Source of the DNA: a virus
Direction: 5' to 3' (one strand)
Length of the DNA stretch: 37,708 nucleotides
IMG/VR virus record: IMGVR_UViG_3300009149_000116
Location: 1 to 37,708 of that record
The translations under genes and the position numbers were made by a program. Below the pieces are notes generated by a model. The model was not told the origin of the DNA and made no database searches. It was given only the letters and a program-made list of their open reading frames with translations. Shown one piece after another: positions 2,770-23,700 of this stretch (position 1 is the stretch's first letter; each line of letters opens with the position of its first letter).

Positions 2770-2798
2770 TTGACAAACAGTACCAAATATGGTATAAT
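2770..2798 (+). promoter_or_regulatory. Consensus sigma-70 early promoter
   Basis: TTGACA at 2770-2775, a 17-base spacer, and TATAAT at 2793-2798: both hexamers are perfect and the spacing optimal. Transcription should start near 2805. The spacer contains AAATATGGTAT, related to the repeat array at 4196-4286, so a common regulator may bind both. It drives the regulator-like genes at 2930 and 3509. Confidence 0.88.
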
Positions 2799-4486: not shown

Positions 4487-4537
4487 TTATATAGTGAAAG
4501 TAATGTTATTTGACAATTAAATATGAAAGGGAACGAA

Positions 4538-4870
4538 ATGAAAACAGGAACAAGCAATTCAGTAACAGTAACGTGCAAGTGTGGTAAAACTTACAAAACA
4601 ACAATAAATGAAGACGGTAGTCGGGTAAAGAAAGATTGCAATGCTTGTGCGTTTGTTCGGCTTGCGGAGTTACGGGTAAACAATGCAATTCAAAAAATCG
4701 AGCTTATCGGCAATTTAGCAGGTGCCAAATATGAGCGAAGTGAAGAACAAATTGCTCAAATCGAATTTGCTTTGTCCGATGCGATTGTCAAAACAATGGA
4801 GCAATTCAAGGCTACCAGAACAATCAAGGCTAAATTTAGTCTTATCAGTACCGGCGAAAATATCGAGTAA
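4538..4870 (+). CDS. Small zinc-binding protein of unknown function
   Basis: 110 residues. The N-terminal part has CKCGK and, some 24 residues on, CNAC, a probable four-cysteine zinc site. The rest is a predicted helical region. An in-frame ATG at 4523 exists, but AAAGGGA lies directly before the ATG at 4538, which is therefore preferred. It is the first gene after the twin promoters and ends just before a GNRA-capped terminator, so it is probably a highly expressed single-gene unit. Function not recognised. Confidence 0.7.
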   Translation: MKTGTSNSVTVTCKCGKTYKTTINEDGSRVKKDCNACAFVRLAELRVNNAIQKIELIGNLAGAKYERSEEQIAQIEFALSDAIVKTMEQFKATRTIKAKFSLISTGENIE

Positions 4871-5717: not shown

Positions 5718-5746
5718 TTGACAAGCGTTAACAATTATAGTATAAT
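5718..5746 (+). promoter_or_regulatory. Consensus sigma-70 promoter
   Basis: TTGACA (5718-5723), 17 bases, TATAAT (5741-5746), both perfect. The sequence beyond the hexamers also resembles the 2770 promoter (TTGACAA at the -35 end, GTATAATAGA at the -10 end). It feeds the small-gene, radical-SAM and amidoligase block downstream. Confidence 0.88.
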
Positions 5747-6258: not shown

Positions 6259-6780
6259 ATGCAAGATACAACTGTAAGGTTTGATACAGCTAAAATAGTT
6301 CTTGATTGGCGATGCAACTTGAATTGTAGTTATTGCTGTAATAAATATAATTATATTAAAAACAGTTTTCTACCAATTACTGCAAAGGAAATAGCAGACT
6401 CACAATATACTGACTATGAATTGACTGGTGGTGAGATATTATTACCACAGGCATTTATTAAACTTGAGGACTTATGCGTAGATTATATACCACAAGATAG
6501 TAATATATATGTTTATACAAATGGTGTGTTCCTTAATCATTATAAAGCTGTACTGATGAAGGGATGGGGTGTTAGAGGATTAAATATAGGGTATCATAAT
6601 AGGCCTTTAGATTGGGAATTATTAGACGAAGTAAATGAGTATTTACCTATTAGATTATGGGTAAGCAATGATGATATACACAACATACCAGAGGATTTAA
6701 GAATAAAAGATATAAATTTGTGGGCGTTGGGCGATTGCGACGCTATTACTACTGATAGGTTTTATTTGATAGGAGAATAA
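6259..6780 (+). CDS. Minimal radical SAM protein
   Basis: 173 residues. The N-terminal part has C19-x3-C23-x2-C26 in the context WRCNLNCSYC, the signature that binds the [4Fe-4S] cluster of radical S-adenosylmethionine enzymes. GGE at 57-59 matches the motif that positions SAM. The protein is shorter than a full TIM-barrel radical SAM enzyme, so it is a minimal or truncated core. No partner genes for queuosine-type DNA modification (QueC, QueD, FolE) are visible. It lies upstream of two amidoligase-fold proteins and a glutamine amidotransferase, which suggests a peptide or small-molecule modification (inference). Substrate unknown. Confidence 0.8.
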   Translation: MQDTTVRFDTAKIVLDWRCNLNCSYCCNKYNYIKNSFLPITAKEIADSQYTDYELTGGEILLPQAFIKLEDLCVDYIPQDSNIYVYTNGVFLNHYKAVLMKGWGVRGLNIGYHNRPLDWELLDEVNEYLPIRLWVSNDDIHNIPEDLRIKDINLWALGDCDAITTDRFYLIGE

Positions 6781-6782
6781 CT

Positions 6783-6986
6783 ATGTATAAAAAATTATCC
6801 ATCATTTCACATACAGTTAATATATCTGCTGAGTATTTACGCAAACTATCTGCTTACGCTTATTGGTGTGGTGGACATAAAAGAGGTTATTGGATATTAA
6901 AGGGTATAAAATATAAGAGTATTAAAGGTGTTGGATATGCTTGTTTAGAGGATTGTGTTAGAAAATGGGGACTAAGAAAACAATAA
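6783..6986 (+). CDS. Small basic protein of unknown function
   Basis: 67 residues starting two bases after the radical SAM stop. Lys/Tyr/Gly-rich and basic. The preceding gene ends in AGGAGAATAA, which supplies the ribosome-binding site. Tight coupling suggests it works with, or is a substrate of, the radical SAM protein, but this is only positional. No family recognised. Confidence 0.55.
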   Translation: MYKKLSIISHTVNISAEYLRKLSAYAYWCGGHKRGYWILKGIKYKSIKGVGYACLEDCVRKWGLRKQ

Positions 6987-7009
6987 TTCTAATATTAAAG
7001 GGAGCTTTA

Positions 7010-7372
7010 ATGAGTAATATGTGTAAACTAAACCAAATTAAAAGTTTTTCTACGGAAGAAAATGAAAGATTAAAGAATGTAATATCTACAGCAGTTAAAG
7101 AAATAAAAGAAGTGTTAGATGCCCTATACAACCAAATACCTAAAACACCTATATCTGTAAATAATCCTTTTGTAGAAAAGTATAAAAATAGTATTTGTAG
7201 ATATTGTACGGATTTAAAACCTATAACTTGTGGGCAGGGAGATTGTTTTGATAGACAAGAATTATGTAAGACCTGTGTTCATATATGTGGTGGCCCTACA
7301 CCATGTGATGCTGAACATTCTATGTCTGCTTGTCCTCTTATTGGTTTGGATAGGTGGTTGGCCGACGGTTAA
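7010..7372 (+). CDS. Cysteine-rich protein
   Basis: About 120 residues starting at the ATG at 7010, preceded by AAAGGGAG; an upstream in-frame ATG at 6965 lacks such a signal. The N-terminal half is helical. The C-terminal half has ten cysteines in a compact region (CRYC, then CGQGDC, CKTCVHIC, CDAEH, CPLIG). This could be a metal cluster or zinc fold. It lies inside the radical-SAM/amidoligase cassette and could be a partner or substrate. Function unknown. Confidence 0.6.
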   Translation: MSNMCKLNQIKSFSTEENERLKNVISTAVKEIKEVLDALYNQIPKTPISVNNPFVEKYKNSICRYCTDLKPITCGQGDCFDRQELCKTCVHICGGPTPCDAEHSMSACPLIGLDRWLADG

Positions 7373-7397
7373 TGTAGATGGACGATAAGGACTAAAA

Positions 7398-7652
7398 ATG
7401 AAACTATTGGATTTGAATAAAATACAAACTGAACAAGATGTTCTTGAAATAGCAGATGATATAGATTCTTATATTGTAAGCAAACTTTCATCAGAATATG
7501 AAGATGCAGAAGGTGTGCAATATTTACACCTGCGTATGTTAGTTTCTTCCATAACAGAAGGTAATGTTACAAGATTTCTATTCCTTAATTCTAATTTATG
7601 TTTGAAGTTTGGTATGAATCAATACTGTGAAATACTGTATAAAAAAAGATAG
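7398..7652 (+). CDS. Small protein of unknown function
   Basis: 84 residues with AAGGA nine bases before the ATG. Acidic, helical N-terminal half (TEQDVLEIADDIDSYIVSKL). No motif recognised. Adjacent to and co-directional with the amidoligase genes. Confidence 0.6.
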   Translation: MKLLDLNKIQTEQDVLEIADDIDSYIVSKLSSEYEDAEGVQYLHLRMLVSSITEGNVTRFLFLNSNLCLKFGMNQYCEILYKKR

Positions 7653-7667
7653 GTGTGGGGAAGTAAC

Positions 7668-8831
7668 ATGGACAATGAATCAATACAAATAAAATGTCAT
7701 TGCTGTGATAATTTATTTGATGAGGAAGGTTTGACATCATATAAAATTGAGGGTGGTAATTTAGAAGTTTCATTATGTGAAACCTGTTATGGTGATGAAA
7801 TTGGAAGATGCGAAAACTGTGGCGGTTTAGAATATAATGATGACATGATACGGTCAGATATTACATCTGATTACTATTGTAAGGATTGCTATAGCGAGAT
7901 ATTTACATCTTGTGATGAATGTGGTTACGAAATATATATTGATAATGGTCGTAGCCATAGTGAATTATGTAGTGAGTGTGATGAAGAGAGGTGGGCTGAT
8001 GGTGATGAGCGTTGTTGTAGCTCATGGAATTATCACGGTACGGATAGCAAACTGTTTTATGGTATTGAGTTAGAGGTTGGCTCTGAAAGTTATATGGGAT
8101 TAAAAAGTATGTTTATAAACAACCTTGATGAGGATTTCTTTGATATTCACAGTGATTGTTCTATTACAGAGGATGATATAGAAGATGAAGCAGAAATTGT
8201 TTCTCACCCTGCTACATATAAATTCTTAAAAGAACATCCCGAATTATGGAACAATGTATTAAGGTATAGACATAAGGGTGTAATCAGTTATAGAACCGGG
8301 ACATGCGGTATACATATACATTTGAGTAGAAGTTATTTTACTACTGAACACTTAGAGAGGTTCTTACAAATGATATATTGCCAGTCCTCATTTACTTATC
8401 TTATTAGTCAACGTAACAGTAGGGCATTAAGCCAATGGGCAGCATTATACGATAGACATAATGACAATAAACGATATACTAAACGTACACTTAAAGAAAA
8501 AATGCAGAAAGACAGGTATAACCAAGACAGGTATGAAGCTGTTAATTTAAGCAGCATATATACCATCGAGCTAAGGCTATTTAGGGGAACACTAAACCAA
8601 ACAGCATTTTGGAAAAACATAGAATATGTACAAGCATTGGTGGAGTTTACTAAAGATGCTAATAATAAACTAACACTATCAAAGTTCTTAAACTATGTAT
8701 CAGAGAATAAAGATGATTATAGTAATCTACATAAGTGGATTATAAAACGTCGTGCAACATTAGTGCCTGATAAAGAGCCTGTTACGTTTAAGAAGGTGAA
8801 ACGCATACTCAAACACTTGGAGTTAGCATAA
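7668..8831 (+). CDS. Amidoligase-fold protein with zinc ribbons, copy 1
   Basis: 387 residues from the ATG at 7668 (GGGGAAG upstream; an in-frame GTG at 7653 is unlikely). The N-terminal 110 residues have three successive four-cysteine zinc ribbons (CHCC/CETC, CENC/CKDC, CDEC/CSEC). The rest matches the amidoligase (COOH-NH2 ligase) fold related to glutamine synthetase and ATP-grasp-type ligases. It shows GIELE at 132-136, SDCS at 162-165, EIVSHP at 176-181, GIHIHLS at 214-220, and a late N-x-R-like core ending ELRLFRGTLN at 301-310. Such enzymes join a carboxylate to an amine using ATP. It overlaps the next gene, a paralogue, by one base. Substrate unknown. Confidence 0.82.
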   Translation: MDNESIQIKCHCCDNLFDEEGLTSYKIEGGNLEVSLCETCYGDEIGRCENCGGLEYNDDMIRSDITSDYYCKDCYSEIFTSCDECGYEIYIDNGRSHSELCSECDEERWADGDERCCSSWNYHGTDSKLFYGIELEVGSESYMGLKSMFINNLDEDFFDIHSDCSITEDDIEDEAEIVSHPATYKFLKEHPELWNNVLRYRHKGVISYRTGTCGIHIHLSRSYFTTEHLERFLQMIYCQSSFTYLISQRNSRALSQWAALYDRHNDNKRYTKRTLKEKMQKDRYNQDRYEAVNLSSIYTIELRLFRGTLNQTAFWKNIEYVQALVEFTKDANNKLTLSKFLNYVSENKDDYSNLHKWIIKRRATLVPDKEPVTFKKVKRILKHLELA

Positions 8832-10144
8832 TGCCTACTAATTTTGATGAAGCAGTAGTAATTTCAGCTTATAATGAACTTAGTAATGTAGTTAATACTG
8901 CACATGACGCCGGGTTAGGGATGCTATGTAGTTGTAGTATATGTAATGCACATATTACAGAAAATAACTGTTATAATGACAGTGAGGTACATAATGGCTT
9001 ATCTTTTATGAGGTGGCCCTTTCCAGTTTGTATAGATTTAGAGGACTGTAGTGTTGGCAGGCATATAGGTTGTACGTGTCACTTTTCTTTTGGTTATACT
9101 ATACGAATTTGTTGGGATTGCTTTGCAAGTATTAGTGGTGCTTATTATAGGTATGTAGATAGTAGTATAAATACATTTATTACTGCTATAGGTACATCCC
9201 ATAATGATGACTCTCTTTGTGTAGCAAATAGCCTAAATGCTATAGCATCAAGAAGTGAAGAAGATTATGATGATAACTCAAGTTGCAGGTATTGTGATAG
9301 AAATGATAGTAGTGTTACTGCCCATGAAGATACGTGGGGTAATGATATATATTTATGTGAAAGATGTGAAAGAAATGGAAATCATTTAATACATGATTAT
9401 ACATATGAACCTGAATTAACATTCTATGAGACTATTAAAGATAAACGAACAGAGTTATTTTATGGTATTGAATTAGAAGTAGAAGTTTTACCTGATTTTA
9501 GAATACCAGATGTAATAAGAAAATTACCAGACTTTACTTATGTTAAAAGCGACAGTAGTATTATGAGGGGTTTTGAAATTGTTTCTCATCCTGCTACTTA
9601 TAATTGGCTATTAGAGCATATTGATGATTGGAATAACATTTTAGATATACGTAACTACGGTTGTCGTAGTTATAATACACGAACATGCGGTATGCACATA
9701 CATATGAGTAAGGCCGCTTTTGGTAGACATCACTTGTATAAGTACTTATATTTTATGTATAATCCAGTTAATAAGACAGCAATAACACAAATCAGCCAGC
9801 GTGAGGATTGTTTATTGGATAGGTGGTCTGGTTTTAATAACGACCTTAGAATGATAAAAGCAAAAGCATTAACTCGTGCTGAAGTGGGTGATAGACATAC
9901 GGCTGTTGGTCTTGGACGTATAAGTACTGTAGAACTAAGAATATTTAGGGGGACATTAAACCCAGTAGCATTTTGGAAAAACATAGAGTTTGCACATGCG
10001 TTGTATAACTTTACTAAAGATAATGGATTAAAAAGTATGATATGGATAATGTTTATAGAATATGTTAAGGCTAACAAGCGTGACTATCCAAACCTAAACA
10101 AGTTTTTATTCTGTGAACAAACTGAAACTATACTGAATTATTAG
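8831..10144 (+). CDS. Amidoligase-fold protein with zinc ribbon, copy 2
   Basis: 437 residues, a paralogue of the preceding gene with a larger cysteine-rich N-terminal region (CSCSIC, CTCH, CWDC, then CRYC/CERC at about 152-179). The catalytic-like core is GIELEVE at 212-218, KSDSSI at 239-244, EIVSHP at 249-254, GMHIHMS at 287-293 and ELRIFRGTLN at 368-377, followed by FWKNIE as in copy 1. Both copies keep all these motifs, so both are probably active. Two tandem ligases suggest either two different couplings or a heterodimer. It is followed by a glutamine amidotransferase in the same frame after 18 bases. Confidence 0.82.
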   Translation: MPTNFDEAVVISAYNELSNVVNTAHDAGLGMLCSCSICNAHITENNCYNDSEVHNGLSFMRWPFPVCIDLEDCSVGRHIGCTCHFSFGYTIRICWDCFASISGAYYRYVDSSINTFITAIGTSHNDDSLCVANSLNAIASRSEEDYDDNSSCRYCDRNDSSVTAHEDTWGNDIYLCERCERNGNHLIHDYTYEPELTFYETIKDKRTELFYGIELEVEVLPDFRIPDVIRKLPDFTYVKSDSSIMRGFEIVSHPATYNWLLEHIDDWNNILDIRNYGCRSYNTRTCGMHIHMSKAAFGRHHLYKYLYFMYNPVNKTAITQISQREDCLLDRWSGFNNDLRMIKAKALTRAEVGDRHTAVGLGRISTVELRIFRGTLNPVAFWKNIEFAHALYNFTKDNGLKSMIWIMFIEYVKANKRDYPNLNKFLFCEQTETILNY

Positions 10145-10147
10145 AAA

Positions 10148-10154
10148 GGAAGGG
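10148..10154 (+). promoter_or_regulatory. Ribosome-binding site that decides an AUU start
   Basis: GGAAGGG at 10148-10154, within AAAGGAAGGG, lies eight bases before ATT at 10163. The next usable codon, TTG at 10169, would sit 14 bases away and would remove the cysteine that must be residue 2 of the amidotransferase. Both spacing and the protein family favour ATT. Confidence 0.75.
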
Positions 10155-10162
10155 TAGCAACT

Positions 10163-11128
10163 ATTTGTTTGATAATAGTAAAACCGGCAGGTACAGTGAT
10201 AACGAGACGTACATTAAAAACAGGCTTTCAGGCTAATCCAGATGGTGCTGGAATGATGTACACGCATGACAATGTACTCGAAGTTGTAAAAGGATTCTTT
10301 CACTTTCGGGGATTTTATAAGACGTTTAGGAGTATTGAGCGTGCATTTCCAAAAACTAATATAATAGTACATTTTAGAATAACTACCAGTGGATTAAAGA
10401 ATACTCCTAATTGTCATCCGTTCGTAGTTGACGATACATTGGCATTTGCACACAATGGGATATTTTTAGGATTGGGCACACTATTAGAATCTGATACTAT
10501 GATATTTAACAAAACAGTATTACAGTTGTTACCAAAGGGGTTTCTTGATATACCACGTATCAAAGAAGCATTAGATTTATACATACAAAGAGGTTTTTGT
10601 AAGCTGGCATTTCTAGATAAGGATAATAATTATACTATTATAAATCCAAGTGCCGGGGAATGGAACAACGGCGTATGGTTTTCTAATACATCATATGAGG
10701 ATAGGGCTGTATTCGGTTTTACTAAATATGATTATAACGGGTATGATTATTCTAATACATATCGTAACTGTTCAATGTGTAGACAATTAATACCACTAAG
10801 AGAAATGGAATGGCATGAAGAAGTGGGTGGTTTTGTATGTGATGTGTGTAATTACTCTACTCAGACATCTGCAGGTGACGACTGTGAGGTATGTGGGGTA
10901 TGTGGTTTCTACCCAAGTGAAACGTCCCATGCAGGAATATCATACTGTGCAGATTGTTGGAATGAATTAACAATGTCATATAAAGTGCATTGTCCATGTT
11001 GCCATGAGTATACTACACTAAGACTATTAATGTCTGATGATTATAAATGTGATTCGTGTGGAGCATATGTAACTCCTGATGAATATAAAGATTTGTTACA
11101 CCAAACAGCCATGAAAGGTGTTGATTAA
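10163..11128 (+). CDS. Class II glutamine amidotransferase with zinc ribbons, AUU start
   Basis: About 321 residues. Family hallmarks are NPDGAG at 25-30, HFRITTSG at 70-77, CHPF at 84-87 and AHNGI at 96-100, all typical of N-terminal-nucleophile glutaminases. These enzymes need a cysteine directly after the initiator Met. The frame reads ATT TGT TTG ATA ATA, so starting at ATT gives MCLIIVKPAG, while the first conventional start (TTG, 10169) lacks the nucleophile. The C-terminal third adds several zinc ribbons (CSMC/CDVC, CEVC/CADC, CPCC/CDSC). Predicted to release ammonia from glutamine, probably for the amidoligases immediately upstream. Confidence 0.85.
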   Translation: MCLIIVKPAGTVITRRTLKTGFQANPDGAGMMYTHDNVLEVVKGFFHFRGFYKTFRSIERAFPKTNIIVHFRITTSGLKNTPNCHPFVVDDTLAFAHNGIFLGLGTLLESDTMIFNKTVLQLLPKGFLDIPRIKEALDLYIQRGFCKLAFLDKDNNYTIINPSAGEWNNGVWFSNTSYEDRAVFGFTKYDYNGYDYSNTYRNCSMCRQLIPLREMEWHEEVGGFVCDVCNYSTQTSAGDDCEVCGVCGFYPSETSHAGISYCADCWNELTMSYKVHCPCCHEYTTLRLLMSDDYKCDSCGAYVTPDEYKDLLHQTAMKGVD

Positions 11129-11523
11129 TGTCTATTAAAAATGAAATACATAAATATTGGTTGGTAGTAGTTGATAACTTTGATGAGTTGTGCATACACA
11201 CGATATTTAATACAAAAGTATTAGTTATTAATTTAGGTAACAGGCATGGAACAAGGTGTTCAGGTTACGTAGATATAATTACTATAGATGGTAAGTACAT
11301 AGCACGTTATCCCGGTAAAAGTATAGTAGAAAGTTTTGAGGCTACCCGTAGTAAAAATAAGCTACTTAGAGATTTATTACTCAAGGCAAGATTAAATGAT
11401 GCAGGTAATAAAATAAAGGAAGCCGAACAATTACAACAATTTGATGGTGAGAGTGTACCTGATTTGTCTTTTAGTACACTCGGTGAAGCATGGCGAGAGT
11501 GGACGAGGCGACGCCCAAGCTAA
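11128..11523 (+). CDS. Protein of unknown function
   Basis: 131 residues, start overlapping the previous stop (TAATG), so it is translationally coupled to the amidotransferase. Mixed strand and helix, with a basic Trp-containing C terminus (EAWREWTRRRPS). No motif recognised. The coupling suggests a place in the amidoligase cassette. Confidence 0.6.
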   Translation: MSIKNEIHKYWLVVVDNFDELCIHTIFNTKVLVINLGNRHGTRCSGYVDIITIDGKYIARYPGKSIVESFEATRSKNKLLRDLLLKARLNDAGNKIKEAEQLQQFDGESVPDLSFSTLGEAWREWTRRRPS

Positions 11524-14988: not shown

Positions 14989-15888
14989 ATGCTCTACACA
15001 AACGAACGTAAATTATGTAAGCTACAAGATCGTTTGCCCACTGTTATATCTGATATAGGTAAACCAGATATGAGTATCCCAACAGGTATAGCTTCATTAG
15101 ATGATAAGATGAATGGGTTATATCCCAGTGATTTAATTGTTATTGGTGGTCGTCCGTCGATGGGTAAATCTTCTTTGTTAACTGACATAGCATTATACAT
15201 CAGTCGTAACAGACACGTGCTTATATTTAGTTTAGAAATGACTGCGTATAATTTAACACAACGTATGCTATGCAACTTAGCTGGCGTTAGTTTATTTAAG
15301 TTACGTAAGAATACTCTAACTGAACGTGAACTATGTGATATTAATAATACGTCCAAAGTATTATACAAGCCTGATAACTATAATATATCTATTGATGAGA
15401 CAACAAGGATAACACCGGATGATATGGAAGAAACTATAAGTATGCTTAATGACTCTGGTGATAAAGTTGATTGTGTACTTATTGATTACATACAGTTGAT
15501 GGGCCTACGTAGTTCATGTGAGAATAGAAACCAAGAGCTATCAGTTATATCAAGACAGCTTAAAGCAATAGCTAATAAGTTTGGTATACCTGTTGTAGTT
15601 CTATCTCAGTTAAATAGAAGTGTAGAGTATAGAGAAAACAGACGACCACTAATGAGTGACTTACGTGACTGTGGTTCTATTGAACAAGATGCAGATGTAG
15701 TTTTATTATTGTATCGAGAAGGGTATTATACTAGAGTTAATAACCCAGACGCTATTGATAACGGGACAGCAGAAATGATATTAACTAAGGTAAGAAATGG
15801 TGCTACTGGGATAGCTGTAGCTACATGGGATGCAGAAGGGATGAGTTTTAATCCGAGACTCAGATTAAATATGGAGGATAACTTTTGA
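14989..15888 (+). CDS. dnaB: Replicative DNA helicase, DnaB type
   Basis: 299 residues comprising the RecA-like motor only; the usual N-terminal collar domain of DnaB is absent. Walker A GRPSMGKS at 54-61, Walker B CVLIDYIQL at 162-170, a sensor Gln in VVLSQLNR at 203-210, and the arginine-finger segment around DLRDCGSIEQDAD. It would unwind the fork as a hexamer. AGGAG precedes the ATG. Primase is encoded separately at 17132, so the two activities, fused in T7 gp4, are split here. Confidence 0.92.
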   Translation: MLYTNERKLCKLQDRLPTVISDIGKPDMSIPTGIASLDDKMNGLYPSDLIVIGGRPSMGKSSLLTDIALYISRNRHVLIFSLEMTAYNLTQRMLCNLAGVSLFKLRKNTLTERELCDINNTSKVLYKPDNYNISIDETTRITPDDMEETISMLNDSGDKVDCVLIDYIQLMGLRSSCENRNQELSVISRQLKAIANKFGIPVVVLSQLNRSVEYRENRRPLMSDLRDCGSIEQDADVVLLLYREGYYTRVNNPDAIDNGTAEMILTKVRNGATGIAVATWDAEGMSFNPRLRLNMEDNF

Positions 15889-16376
15889 AAAGATATAAAG
15901 ATTATAATTATTTTATTACTAAGAGCGGGTTAGTATGGTCAGGATTTACTAATAAATGGCTGAGTCCTTTTTCTAATAGAGATGGTTACGCAGAGATATC
16001 TTTAAGCAAAGAAGGTAAACAACAAACTCGTTTAGTACACAGATTAGTTTTAGAGGCGTTTGTTGGGCCATGTCCAAATGGTAAAGTGTGTAGGCATTTA
16101 GATGGTAATCCTGCAAATAATAATTTGAGTAATATATGTTGGGATACCCAAAGTAATAACTTAAAAGATAAAGCTAAACATAATACTGTGCCTTGGGGCG
16201 AGACTTCCCCCAATCATAGGTTAGAGAAAGAAGAAGTCCAAGCTATTAGATATTTGTATTTGAAGTGTGGTTTAACCCAAAAAGATATAGCTGATAGATA
16301 CGATATTACACAATCGCACGTATCACGATTAGTAAATAAAAACTGTTGGTCACGACTAAGTTTAGGAGAATTTTAA
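15885..16376 (+). CDS. HNH homing endonuclease (NUMOD4/HNH type)
   Basis: 163 residues starting at TTG overlapping the helicase stop, with GGAGG eight bases upstream. The N-terminal part follows the NUMOD4 pattern (GLVWS then W.SPFSNRDGY). The middle matches the HNH_3 motif (RLVLEAFVGP, CRHLDGNPANNNLSNICW, where N-x3-N-L-x2-I-x-W is typical). The C-terminal part has a helix-turn-helix (LTQKDIADRYDITQSHVSRL). Phage homing endonucleases of this build insert beside replication genes, as here. Probably free-standing and active. Confidence 0.88.
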   Translation: MKRYKDYNYFITKSGLVWSGFTNKWLSPFSNRDGYAEISLSKEGKQQTRLVHRLVLEAFVGPCPNGKVCRHLDGNPANNNLSNICWDTQSNNLKDKAKHNTVPWGETSPNHRLEKEEVQAIRYLYLKCGLTQKDIADRYDITQSHVSRLVNKNCWSRLSLGEF

Positions 16377-20385: not shown

Positions 20386-20777
20386 AAGATAACATACCAT
20401 CATGGGAATATGTTGCAGGTTTTTATGATGGGGAAGGTTGTTTTAGAGTTTATCCATATAAGAATACAAATTCTAATGGACATATATATACAGGAGAACG
20501 TCCGTTTGTTGTTGTATCACAGGTTAAAGATAACAATAAAGTTTTACATCTTATTTCCAATAAATTTAAGGACTATGATATAAAACATTCTTTTTACGAA
20601 GATAAGTATAAAGAGTATAAACATATTGGGCGACCTATGTCAGTTATTCAAATAACGGATAGACGAAGCTGCAAAGTTTTTATAGAGTATGTTCTTCCTT
20701 TTCTTATAATAAAAAAAGAGGAAGCTAAAATAGTTTTAACTTTTTGTAGGAGAAAATTAAAATCAAAGCGTACATGA
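20382..20777 (+). CDS. LAGLIDADG homing endonuclease, single motif
   Basis: 131 residues, TTG start overlapping the preceding TGA, with AAAAAAGGAG upstream. The motif WEYVAGFYDGEGCF (about residues 8-21) is the LAGLIDADG helix with its catalytic acidic residue; the downstream pattern of strands and a basic C terminus fits a single-motif homodimeric enzyme. It lies between two nucleotide-metabolism genes and ends over the start of the next one (ATGA). LAGLIDADG endonucleases are much rarer in phages than HNH or GIY-YIG types. Confidence 0.85.
   Translation: MKDNIPSWEYVAGFYDGEGCFRVYPYKNTNSNGHIYTGERPFVVVSQVKDNNKVLHLISNKFKDYDIKHSFYEDKYKEYKHIGRPMSVIQITDRRSCKVFIEYVLPFLIIKKEEAKIVLTFCRRKLKSKRT
20747..20752 (+). 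promoter_or_regulatory. Ribosome-binding site suggesting an AUC start
   Basis: TAGGAG at 20747-20752 lies nine bases before an in-frame ATC at 20762 but 21 bases before the first ATG (20774). Starting at ATC would give MKAYMSHSIRG, matching the start of the deoxyribosyltransferase-like family. A coupled restart at ATG (overlapping TGA) is the alternative. Confidence 0.4.
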
Positions 20778-21175
20778 GCCATTCTATACGTGGTCGAGCC
20801 GGTAATGCTGCGACAGGTGAGGACATGCTAGCTAATAATAAGAAAGCTATTGAAGTTGGTGTTGAGCTACGTAGATTATGTCCCGGACTAAGGTTATATA
20901 TTCCTGCCGAAATGGATTTCTTTTTACAAGACAAAGGTATTGAACCTATTGAGATAGGAGAAAAAGTTATCCTTGCTCTGGACTGTAAGATTCTAGAACA
21001 GTGTGATACACTATTAGTATACACAGGCCCAGATGATTATGTAAGTGGTGGTATGCAAATAGAAATTAATCATGCACCAGTAGATTGTATGCAGATTTTC
21101 TATTTTGATGAAGTAACACATGGAGTTGTGAAGATTATAAATTCTTTAATTAAAGGTAATGATAAGGAGAACTAA
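20774..21175 (+). CDS. Nucleoside 2-deoxyribosyltransferase-like protein
   Basis: 133 residues from the ATG overlapping the LAGLIDADG stop. SHSIRGRAG at the N terminus, an acidic central segment with PAEMDFF, DCKILEQCDTLLVYTG and SGGMQIEINHA match the DUF4406/deoxyribosyltransferase-like fold, where a Glu in the SGGMQIE segment is nucleophile-like. The first strand normally begins a few residues earlier (KAYMSHS is encoded in frame upstream), so the true start may be ATC at 20762. Predicted to act on nucleosides or nucleotides, in keeping with the mazG-type neighbours. Confidence 0.7.
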   Translation: MSHSIRGRAGNAATGEDMLANNKKAIEVGVELRRLCPGLRLYIPAEMDFFLQDKGIEPIEIGEKVILALDCKILEQCDTLLVYTGPDDYVSGGMQIEINHAPVDCMQIFYFDEVTHGVVKIINSLIKGNDKEN

Positions 21176-21870
21176 TGAGTAACATTTTAGTACCAGGTGA
21201 TCTTCATTGTCCTTGGCAGCGTGCTGGTTATTTACAATTTCTAATAGATTTATACTATCAATGGAATTGTGATGAGGTTATATTTATTGGAGACGTAGTA
21301 GATATGCACGCGGTATCCTTCTTTAATACAGACCCCGGTTGCCCCAGCGGTTTAGAAGAATACATTAGAACCAAGGAAGCAGTAGCTAAGTTTTATAAAG
21401 CGTTTCCTAAAGCAACAGTTGTATTAGGTAATCATGATAAACGTGTAGTTAGAAAAGCCAGAAGTGCTGATATACATGAAGTCTTTATTAAGTCCTATGC
21501 TGATATTTGGGAAACGCCGGGATGGGATTGGGTTGAAGATTGTATACGTGATGATATTTATTTTTATCACGGAGACGGGCAGGGTGGAGAATATCCTGCT
21601 GCTAATGCCGTAAGAAAAATGTTGATGTCAGTTGTAATGGGACATAATCACACTGCATCAGGTATAAAATATTATAGCAACCCTACGCAAAGGTTCTTTG
21701 CACTTGATACAGGAGCAGGTTGTGATGATAGGGCATTAGCGTTTGCTTACGCTGGTAATAATAAACGTAAGAGTGTATTGAGTGCTGCTGTTATTATTGA
21801 CGGTACGCCTTATCTTGAACCTATGTTGTGTGGTAAGGGAGAACCATATTGGGATGGTAATTTCAAATAA
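21175..21870 (+). CDS. Metallophosphoesterase, second copy
   Basis: 231 residues, ATG overlapping the previous stop. Motifs in order: GDLH at 8-11, GDVVD at 39-43, GNHD at 85-88, YHGD at 131-134 and GHNH at 156-159, the complete set of metal ligands of the calcineurin-like fold. Longer and distinct from the 12840 enzyme. Directly upstream of the DNA polymerase, with which it is coupled; processing of DNA ends or nucleotides is plausible. Substrate unknown. Confidence 0.87.
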   Translation: MSNILVPGDLHCPWQRAGYLQFLIDLYYQWNCDEVIFIGDVVDMHAVSFFNTDPGCPSGLEEYIRTKEAVAKFYKAFPKATVVLGNHDKRVVRKARSADIHEVFIKSYADIWETPGWDWVEDCIRDDIYFYHGDGQGGEYPAANAVRKMLMSVVMGHNHTASGIKYYSNPTQRFFALDTGAGCDDRALAFAYAGNNKRKSVLSAAVIIDGTPYLEPMLCGKGEPYWDGNFK

Positions 21871-22922
21871 TGGATAAACATATACTTACAAAATGGACAG
21901 AGTTTAGGGACTGGTGTAGGGGTGATATCTCTACACTAGCTCTGGACTTTGAGTGTACGAACGCCAGCTATCTTGGATTGCAGGTAGCTGGTTGGTCGGC
22001 ATGTAATGGAGAATCACTATGCTATGTAGACGTATTAGATAACCCACAGTATCAGATATTATGTAATCAGTTAGCTCATATACTACGTGATAAAGTTAAG
22101 TGTTTGATAATGCACAATGCCCCCTTCGATATGCGTATATTAAAACAACTAGACATACAACATACAGATAATATATTCTGTACTATGACAGCAGCACACC
22201 TATTGAACGAGAACACACCTAAAGGTTTAAAGTGGCAGACAGTACACGTATTAAAACAAACACGTGAGACACTAAACTTTAGTGATGCTATATCAGAGGG
22301 CTTTCATTCACGTAAATTCTATGAGTATGCTACTGATGATGCTGTTAATACATTTGATTTATATAAGCTTCAAGTTCCCCAATTAAAGAAACAGGAGTTA
22401 TGGGATTTGTGGTATAATATAGAACGCCCGTTTCAGTATTGTCTAAGAGACTTGGCTATAAACGGCGTGTTAGTTGACAAAGTTAACTTGGTTGCTGCAC
22501 AAGAGCAAACTACTCAAGATGTTAATGAGTTAGAGATAGAAATGTATAAGTCTGCTGGCGTTAGTTATTATACACAGATGTTATTAGACGGGGGTTACGA
22601 AATTATCCCAAAGGTCAACTTGAACAGCCCACTACAACTTATTGATTTGTTACAACATCTTGGTGTTACATTAAAAGAAACAACAGATGGTGGACAGTTA
22701 AGTACTAAAGAAGCTGTATTAGTATCAGTTAGACGTCAGCATCCGTTTGTAGGGTTGTTGTTAAAGTATCGTACTATTAGTAAAATGCTTAATGGATTTC
22801 TTATACCACTACCTAAGTTTATACAAGCAGATAGTAGGATACGTGGTTCGTTTCACAATTGCGTGGCAGTAACTGGTAGGTTATCGTGTACTAAACCTAG
22901 TTTACAATGTTTACCTAAATAG
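21870..22922 (+). CDS. polA: DNA polymerase I family, exonuclease and thumb part
   Basis: 350 residues. The 3'-5' proofreading domain is intact: D26-x-E28 (LALDFECT), N-x3-FD in MHNAPFDMRI, and YATDDAVNTFDLY. The polymerase thumb follows, and the ORF stops right after TGRLSCTKPSLQCLPK, the conserved TGRLS...PNLQNIP segment just before motif A. The remaining palm and fingers are encoded at 22933-23700 in another frame. No 5' nuclease domain is present, as in T7-type polymerases. The stop TAG overlaps the Shine-Dalgarno of the second half. Confidence 0.92.
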   Translation: MDKHILTKWTEFRDWCRGDISTLALDFECTNASYLGLQVAGWSACNGESLCYVDVLDNPQYQILCNQLAHILRDKVKCLIMHNAPFDMRILKQLDIQHTDNIFCTMTAAHLLNENTPKGLKWQTVHVLKQTRETLNFSDAISEGFHSRKFYEYATDDAVNTFDLYKLQVPQLKKQELWDLWYNIERPFQYCLRDLAINGVLVDKVNLVAAQEQTTQDVNELEIEMYKSAGVSYYTQMLLDGGYEIIPKVNLNSPLQLIDLLQHLGVTLKETTDGGQLSTKEAVLVSVRRQHPFVGLLLKYRTISKMLNGFLIPLPKFIQADSRIRGSFHNCVAVTGRLSCTKPSLQCLPK

Positions 22923-22932
22923 GAAATTAAAT

Positions 22933-23700
22933 ATGGCTAAGGTAGATGTAAGATCATTTATAATAGCACCTGATGGTAAGGTATTACTCTGTGCTGATTA
23001 TGCTGGACAGGAGCTACGTGTATTGGCACACGTGGCTCAAGAGCCAACAATGATAGCGGCGTTCTTAAAGAACCAAGATGTACATTTGCTCTTAGCTAAT
23101 GACTTCTATGACTTGAATACTCCAGAAGAATATATTACCACTACTCATTCAGAGTATAACAGTACCAAGACTAAGTTTAAGCAACAGCGTAATGATATCA
23201 AAACTGTTAACTTTGGGCTAGCTTATGGAAAGACTAAGTATGGGTTCGCTGCTGATTGGGGTTGGTCTGTGCCCAAAGCTGAACAATTCATAGCAAAATA
23301 CTTTGAGCGTTTTCCTCAGATTAAAACAGCTATTGATAAATGTAATGAGCTAGTTAAGAAACAAAAAGCTATACGTAACCTAACTGGACGTATACGTAGG
23401 TTCGACCATGTAGATGATAGGGTGTTACGGCAGGCATTTAATTTCTGTATTCAGGGTGCGTCTGCGGATATGGTAAAGAAGGCTGCGGGCGATACTTATA
23501 AGCTATGCCAGCTACGTCCTGAGTGGGACTGTAAATTAGTATTAAGTGTACATGACGAGTTAGTGTATGAAGTTAACGATGAGTACAAAGATATAGCATT
23601 AGCTGAAATTAAGTACACTATGGAACACGCTGTTGAGTTGTGTGTTCCTATGATAGTGGATATAAATTATGGTTTAAATTATTCAATAGCCAAGTGCTAA
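22933..23700 (+). CDS. polA: DNA polymerase I family, palm and fingers part
   Basis: 255 residues. Motif A DYAGQELR at 22-29 with catalytic D22; motif B R86-x3-K90-x3-F94 then YG at 98-99, the O-helix pattern; motif C VHDE at 206-209. It begins just before motif A and with the upstream ORF makes a complete family A polymerase. AGGAA lies eight bases before the ATG. The frame differs from that of the first half by +1; removing the single T of the TAG stop would give one continuous reading frame through PKRKLNMAKVDV. The two chains may assemble non-covalently into the active enzyme. Confidence 0.93.
   Translation: MAKVDVRSFIIAPDGKVLLCADYAGQELRVLAHVAQEPTMIAAFLKNQDVHLLLANDFYDLNTPEEYITTTHSEYNSTKTKFKQQRNDIKTVNFGLAYGKTKYGFAADWGWSVPKAEQFIAKYFERFPQIKTAIDKCNELVKKQKAIRNLTGRIRRFDHVDDRVLRQAFNFCIQGASADMVKKAAGDTYKLCQLRPEWDCKLVLSVHDELVYEVNDEYKDIALAEIKYTMEHAVELCVPMIVDINYGLNYSIAKC

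Follow-up and report, generated by a model that had tools for sequence, protein, structure and literature searches.

At the locus described here, two amidoligase genes (AL1 and AL2) and a class II glutamine amidotransferase (GATase) gene follow one another, preceded by a minimal radical SAM gene and three small orphan open reading frames (ORFs) (Table 1). The locus lies in the IMG/VR record IMGVR_UViG_3300009149_000116, whose 37,708 bases were analyzed as a whole and are called the window below; the window carries genes for a terminase small subunit, SSB, a DnaB-like helicase, a primase, a DNA polymerase, and an exonuclease and therefore belongs to a tailed phage. All genes of a cassette proposed in an earlier note on this DNA are open frames in the order given there. 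The note also placed them behind one consensus promoter, and while a perfect sigma-70 site is indeed present, it does not set the cassette genes apart, because they belong to a series of early genes on the plus strand that extends from about 2.9 to 27 kb. The window holds two such perfect sites against 0.10 expected. No Rfam family was found in the window, and a PADLOC search for defense systems returned no match for the ligases or the GATase, so that a reading of the locus as a defense system was rejected.

Table 1. Features of the ligase-GATase locus and its upstream interval (window coordinates)
Feature	Position	Strand	Remarks
Second perfect sigma-70 consensus promoter	2770-2798		extended -10; directly upstream of first early gene
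Perfect sigma-70 consensus promoter	5718..5746	+	TTGACA-17-TATAAT, 12/12 consensus match
Minimal radical SAM protein, 173 aa, probable accessory gene	6259..6780	+	CxxxCxxC, TGGE, and TNG motifs; phrog_1802
Orphan ORF, 67 aa	6783..6986	+	in variable interval; no family, no relative in collected loci
Cys-rich orphan protein, 120 aa	7010..7372	+	no convincing family, no relative in collected loci
Orphan ORF, 84 aa	7398..7652	+	no family, no relative in collected loci
Amidoligase AL1	7668..8831	+	N-terminal zinc-ribbon array, ligase core from about 8055; alternative start GTG 7653
Amidoligase AL2	8831..10144	+	zinc ribbons, then core
Class II GATase	10163..11128	+	putative ATT start; nucleophile Cys2 at 10166-10168; C-terminal zinc ribbons from about 10769

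Both ligases match the Amidoligase_2 profile (PF12224; curated cutoff, 22 bits), AL1 clearly (E = 4e-13, 50.3 bits) and AL2 barely above the cutoff (E = 1e-4, 22.7 bits). AL1 probably starts at the ATG at 7668, which is served by the Shine-Dalgarno sequence GGGGAAG. The core residues, in AL2 numbering G212, E214, E216, D241, S243, E249, H289, H291, R324, E368, and R370, are invariant across 39 aligned relatives, and AL1 and AL2 each keep all of them, as the earlier note had claimed for its tandem paralogues. A profile for COOH-NH2 ligases (PF14395) matched nothing anywhere, the controls being likewise silent. In the structure prediction for AL2, most of the stretch from residue 190 to residue 430 reached a pLDDT above 90, while the first 150 residues were poorly modeled. 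When the AL2 core was compared with the PDB by Foldseek, it matched YbdK (3e-5) and gamma-glutamylmethylamide synthetase (GmaS; 4e-5), and also glutamine synthetases and the Pup ligase/depupylase PafA/Dop; among viral models, annotated amidoligases were returned. Judged by this predicted fold, compared for AL2, the ligase core is of the glutamine synthetase superfamily.

The GATase resembles GlmS and PurF (E = 3e-11 with a seven-member profile), which are also its nearest solved relatives. Among 28 relatives, Cys2, Arg72, Asn98, and Gly99 never vary and Asp111 hardly does, a pattern that matches the class II glutaminase site. Conservation also leads us to place its start at the ATT at 10163 rather than at the mechanically listed TTG at 10169, because the latter would drop the catalytic Cys2, invariant in the 28 relatives. 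In the frame that follows the TAG of AL2 (10142-10144), no ATG, GTG, or TTG precedes the codons ATT TGT TTG, and the Shine-Dalgarno sequence AAGGAAGGG lies at a good distance upstream of the ATT. Among related GATases, 77 start codons are ATG, three are ATT (the window, its duplicate L001, and L058), and two are ATC (L011 and L058), with an upstream GTG as an alternative in L011. Contig L001 is the same phage as the window, from within AL2 onward. We also considered a readthrough fusion of AL2 and the GATase across the in-frame TAG and rejected it: the share of in-frame pairs (28 of 60) does not clearly exceed one third when kinship among loci is allowed for, and Cys2 would be buried in the fused chain. 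Prediction of such a chain gave no confident arrangement (pTM 0.46).

To ask how far this gene arrangement extends, we drew on loci from a profile-based scan of viral contigs (80 loci) and a genome scan (31 loci), with named phages also included. The association of amidoligase and amidotransferase to which the earlier note had pointed is strongly conserved: of 114 loci whose ligase could be scored, taken from viral contigs, bacterial genomes, and named phages, 105 carry a GATase on the ligase strand no more than 500 bp away. Among the nine exceptions, L017, L076, and L086 break off at the ligase or inside the GATase, L082 and L083 have an upstream GATase missed by the motif filter, and L124 has one at 720 bp; at L009, L131, and L135, no GATase was seen beside the ligase. 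The distance from ligase stop to GATase start is mostly -26 to +36 bases, the genes usually overlapping or lying within about 40 bases of each other, which fits translational coupling. When neighboring proteins from 60 non-redundant loci were clustered, no family apart from the pair itself occurred in more than 18 loci, and the commonest one groups with helicases. This near-universal pairing in the absence of another fixed partner suggests that ligase and GATase suffice together. Phages and mobile elements widely carry the pair, which is kept in many distantly related viruses and in some bacterial elements, and its catalytic residues vary little or not at all.

CxxC pairs are present on all three enzymes, with six in AL1, four ahead of the core in AL2, and seven after the HNG motif in the GATase. 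The further proposal that these zinc ribbons dock the enzymes to a common substrate found no backing, as ligases of this kind commonly carry such ribbons in clostridial elements and unrelated phages as well, and the ribbons of ligase and GATase do not covary across loci (Fisher p = 0.48).

The tandem arrangement of the ligases is conserved across the lineage of the window. The ligase-ligase-GATase triplet recurs in three other phages of this lineage (loci L011, L013, and L015 in records G002, G004, and G006), which share the SSB, exonuclease, helicase, and primase-like genes with the window and mostly the terminase (packaging) genes too; in L012, both the ligase and the GATase are present twice. 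The AL1 proteins of the window and of L011, L013, and L015 form one separate clade (support 100/98), and therefore the duplication predates the split of the four phages; AL2 of the window groups with L015 at only 84/68, the deep AL2 branches being poorly supported. By sequence, the duplication is old and both copies are intact: throughout the tandem loci of the lineage, both ligases carry the core motifs, and the sole flagged motif (D-T-S in L015) keeps its D and S. Our search of the openly licensed literature turned up no account of an amidoligase duplication that is conserved together with a single GATase. The phage ligase-GATase pair is already known from phages of the phiEco32 type, Marvin, and OM43 phages, and the new part is the conserved duplication of the ligase. 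Two adjacent ligases with one GATase were also seen in bacterial contigs from an uncultured Ruminococcus (L112) and a Brachyspira (L133), perhaps as independent duplications.

The genes upstream of AL1 behave differently. The radical SAM ORF carries CNLNCSYC, TGGE, and YTNG motifs and, with its CxxxCxxC and GGE motifs and profile support, belongs to the radical SAM superfamily; it matches phrog_1802 ("radical SAM") at 1e-12 and PF04055 weakly (E = 5e-4, below cutoff). No SPASM cluster domain was found in this protein, which ends after a partial core, and SPASM-type families gave no match above cutoff or over its C-terminal part. An identity as a prokaryotic viperin (pVip) was rejected, with only residues 18 to 94 matching (4e-6) and the NCBIfam viperin score (0.003) far below cutoff; MoaA, QueE, and NrdG were rejected as well, since similarity to them is confined to the common core and in every case falls far short of the cutoff. 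Neither tblastn in phages nor the viral-contig scan found a relative of the protein. The gene is absent from the sister phages G002, G004, and G006, whose sequences reach 4 to 6 kb beyond AL1 on the upstream side. In 36 whole viral records, only three besides the window match PF04055; in two of these the match is remote from the pair, and in the third it sits on the other strand at a distance of about 3.5 kb. A home-built profile, of limited sensitivity because it was made from five sequences, found an adjacent radical SAM gene in one other of about 118 loci, L107 (2782-6090). In this contig, from a Ruminococcus flavefaciens metagenome-assembled genome (MAG), a longer SPASM-like radical SAM gene lies directly upstream of the amidoligase-GATase pair, near a recombinase-like ORF. 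The Cys-rich ORF, which probably starts at the ATG at 7010 behind the Shine-Dalgarno sequence GGGAG, has no relative in any collected locus. A relative of window ORF 4523-4870 lies upstream of AL1 in G002 and G004, so that the interval is bounded on both sides while its contents differ. Because it is missing from the sister phages and from nearly all other ligase neighborhoods, the radical SAM gene looks, by its distribution, like an accessory passenger in a variable early interval outside the module. The inclusion of the radical SAM gene and the Cys-rich gene in the cassette, as the earlier note had it, was thus not upheld: among related phages, ligase, ligase, and GATase are kept together, and the radical SAM gene shows the random distribution that the note had named as counting against its proposal.

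Our results lead us to favor, as the probable reading, a module of AL1, AL2, and GATase that acts as a glutamine-dependent amidating system in which two ligases draw on one ammonia supplier. The GATase, given its complete active-site residues, would free ammonia from glutamine by means of its N-terminal Cys, and the ammonia would pass to a ligase of glutamine synthetase fold that uses ATP to activate a carboxylate for amidation, as fold, residues, and translational coupling suggest. After the old duplication, the two ligases probably serve two substrates or two positions from the common ammonia supply, and the zinc-ribbon arrays hint that the target may be a macromolecule. No paper naming a substrate of the pair was found among the openly licensed literature. 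As the pair has no other fixed partner, reconstitution with two genes could answer the question of its substrate, and a lineage with two divergent ligases and one GATase offers a natural comparison of substrate choice.

Alternatively, the module might amidate or cross-link peptidoglycan or another envelope polymer, altering the cell surface and blocking superinfection, a published prediction for phiEco32 and related podoviruses that reportedly goes back to Iyer et al. 2009. The prediction has been repeated for OM43 phages (PMC10580990) and Pseudoalteromonas phages (PMC5498523), and the amidation of peptidoglycan glutamate by MurT-GatD offers a precedent (PMC3267633). The openly licensed accounts of the phage pair repeat one prediction. 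We nevertheless hold a cell-wall role to be rather unlikely, since the gamma-glutamyl cyclotransferase (PF06094) found in the positive-control phage W01 is absent from the window and from eight relatives, whose records may be fragments, no single partner family recurs next to the pair, and zinc ribbons would, in our judgment, be an unusual feature in an enzyme that acts on small precursors of the cell wall. A reversible tag, with gamma-glutamyl or other amide bonds made by the ligase and removed by the GATase-fold enzyme acting as a thiol peptidase or amidase, would accord with the presence of PafA/Dop among the structural matches, and Ntn hydrolases can act as amidases; it appears quite unlikely, as all class II glutaminase residues are kept and the sequence is closest to the ammonia-donating GlmS and PurF.

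That radical SAM protein, Cys-rich protein, and ligases jointly modify or tag one peptide seems highly improbable. The genes are adjacent and collinear with a small Cys-rich ORF in between, and the SPASM-like gene of L107 has a comparable position, but the triplet persists in sister phages that lack the radical SAM gene and the Cys-rich ORF, and the single other locus, with a radical SAM protein of another type, is by our estimate at about background frequency. Equally hard to credit is that the two zinc-ribbon ligases, having diverged in function, and their common ammonia donor place two different amide modifications on a macromolecule in the course of infection, to which, in this phage only, the radical SAM protein adds a third change. 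After a duplication, one copy of an enzyme often becomes inactive, and one of the tandem ligases could be inactive and purely structural; we think this very unlikely, because both copies carry all core motifs here and in the other tandem loci of the lineage.

The favored amidating module has its closest counterparts in Marvin (gp105-gp106) and the OM43 phages MEP401 and MEP402, where an Amidoligase_2 gene likewise lies next to a class II GATase gene, ligase first. These phages have one ligase gene, whereas the window has two divergent ligases upstream of one GATase. The putative peptidoglycan modification cassette of the phiEco32/LUZ24 type (StenR_269) also combines an Amidoligase_2 protein with class II GATases but adds a gamma-glutamyl cyclotransferase, an ATP-grasp protein, and another ligase, the cyclotransferase being absent in the window. 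With YbdK, GmaS, and glutamine synthetase, the AL2 core has in common its predicted fold and probably ATP-driven amide formation; in contrast to them, the window ligase (11 to 16% identity) has N-terminal zinc ribbons and would receive its ammonia from a separate GATase. MurT-GatD is alike in outline, pairing a ligase with a glutamine-dependent ammonia donor, but its ligase fold is unrelated and its GATase belongs to a different class.

Elsewhere in the window, a DUF7768-like gene (20756-21175) is a second gene with an apparent ATT start (20756); the codon aligned with it is ATG in sister phages (MKVKAY, MRRIKAY, and MKRIRAY), and the first ATG in the window (20774) would cut the first strand. 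The DNA polymerase (21870-23700) consists of two adjacent ORFs with a 10-base gap between them; it is a single ORF in sister G004 and split in sister G002, which has, overlapping the two parts or lying between them, an ORF similar to the HNH endonuclease of window 15885-16376. The best match in the genome collection is in L105, a contig that carries the ligase, GATase, exonuclease, SSB, helicase, and terminase genes of the same phage type and is binned, possibly by mistake, in a Lokiarchaeota MAG.
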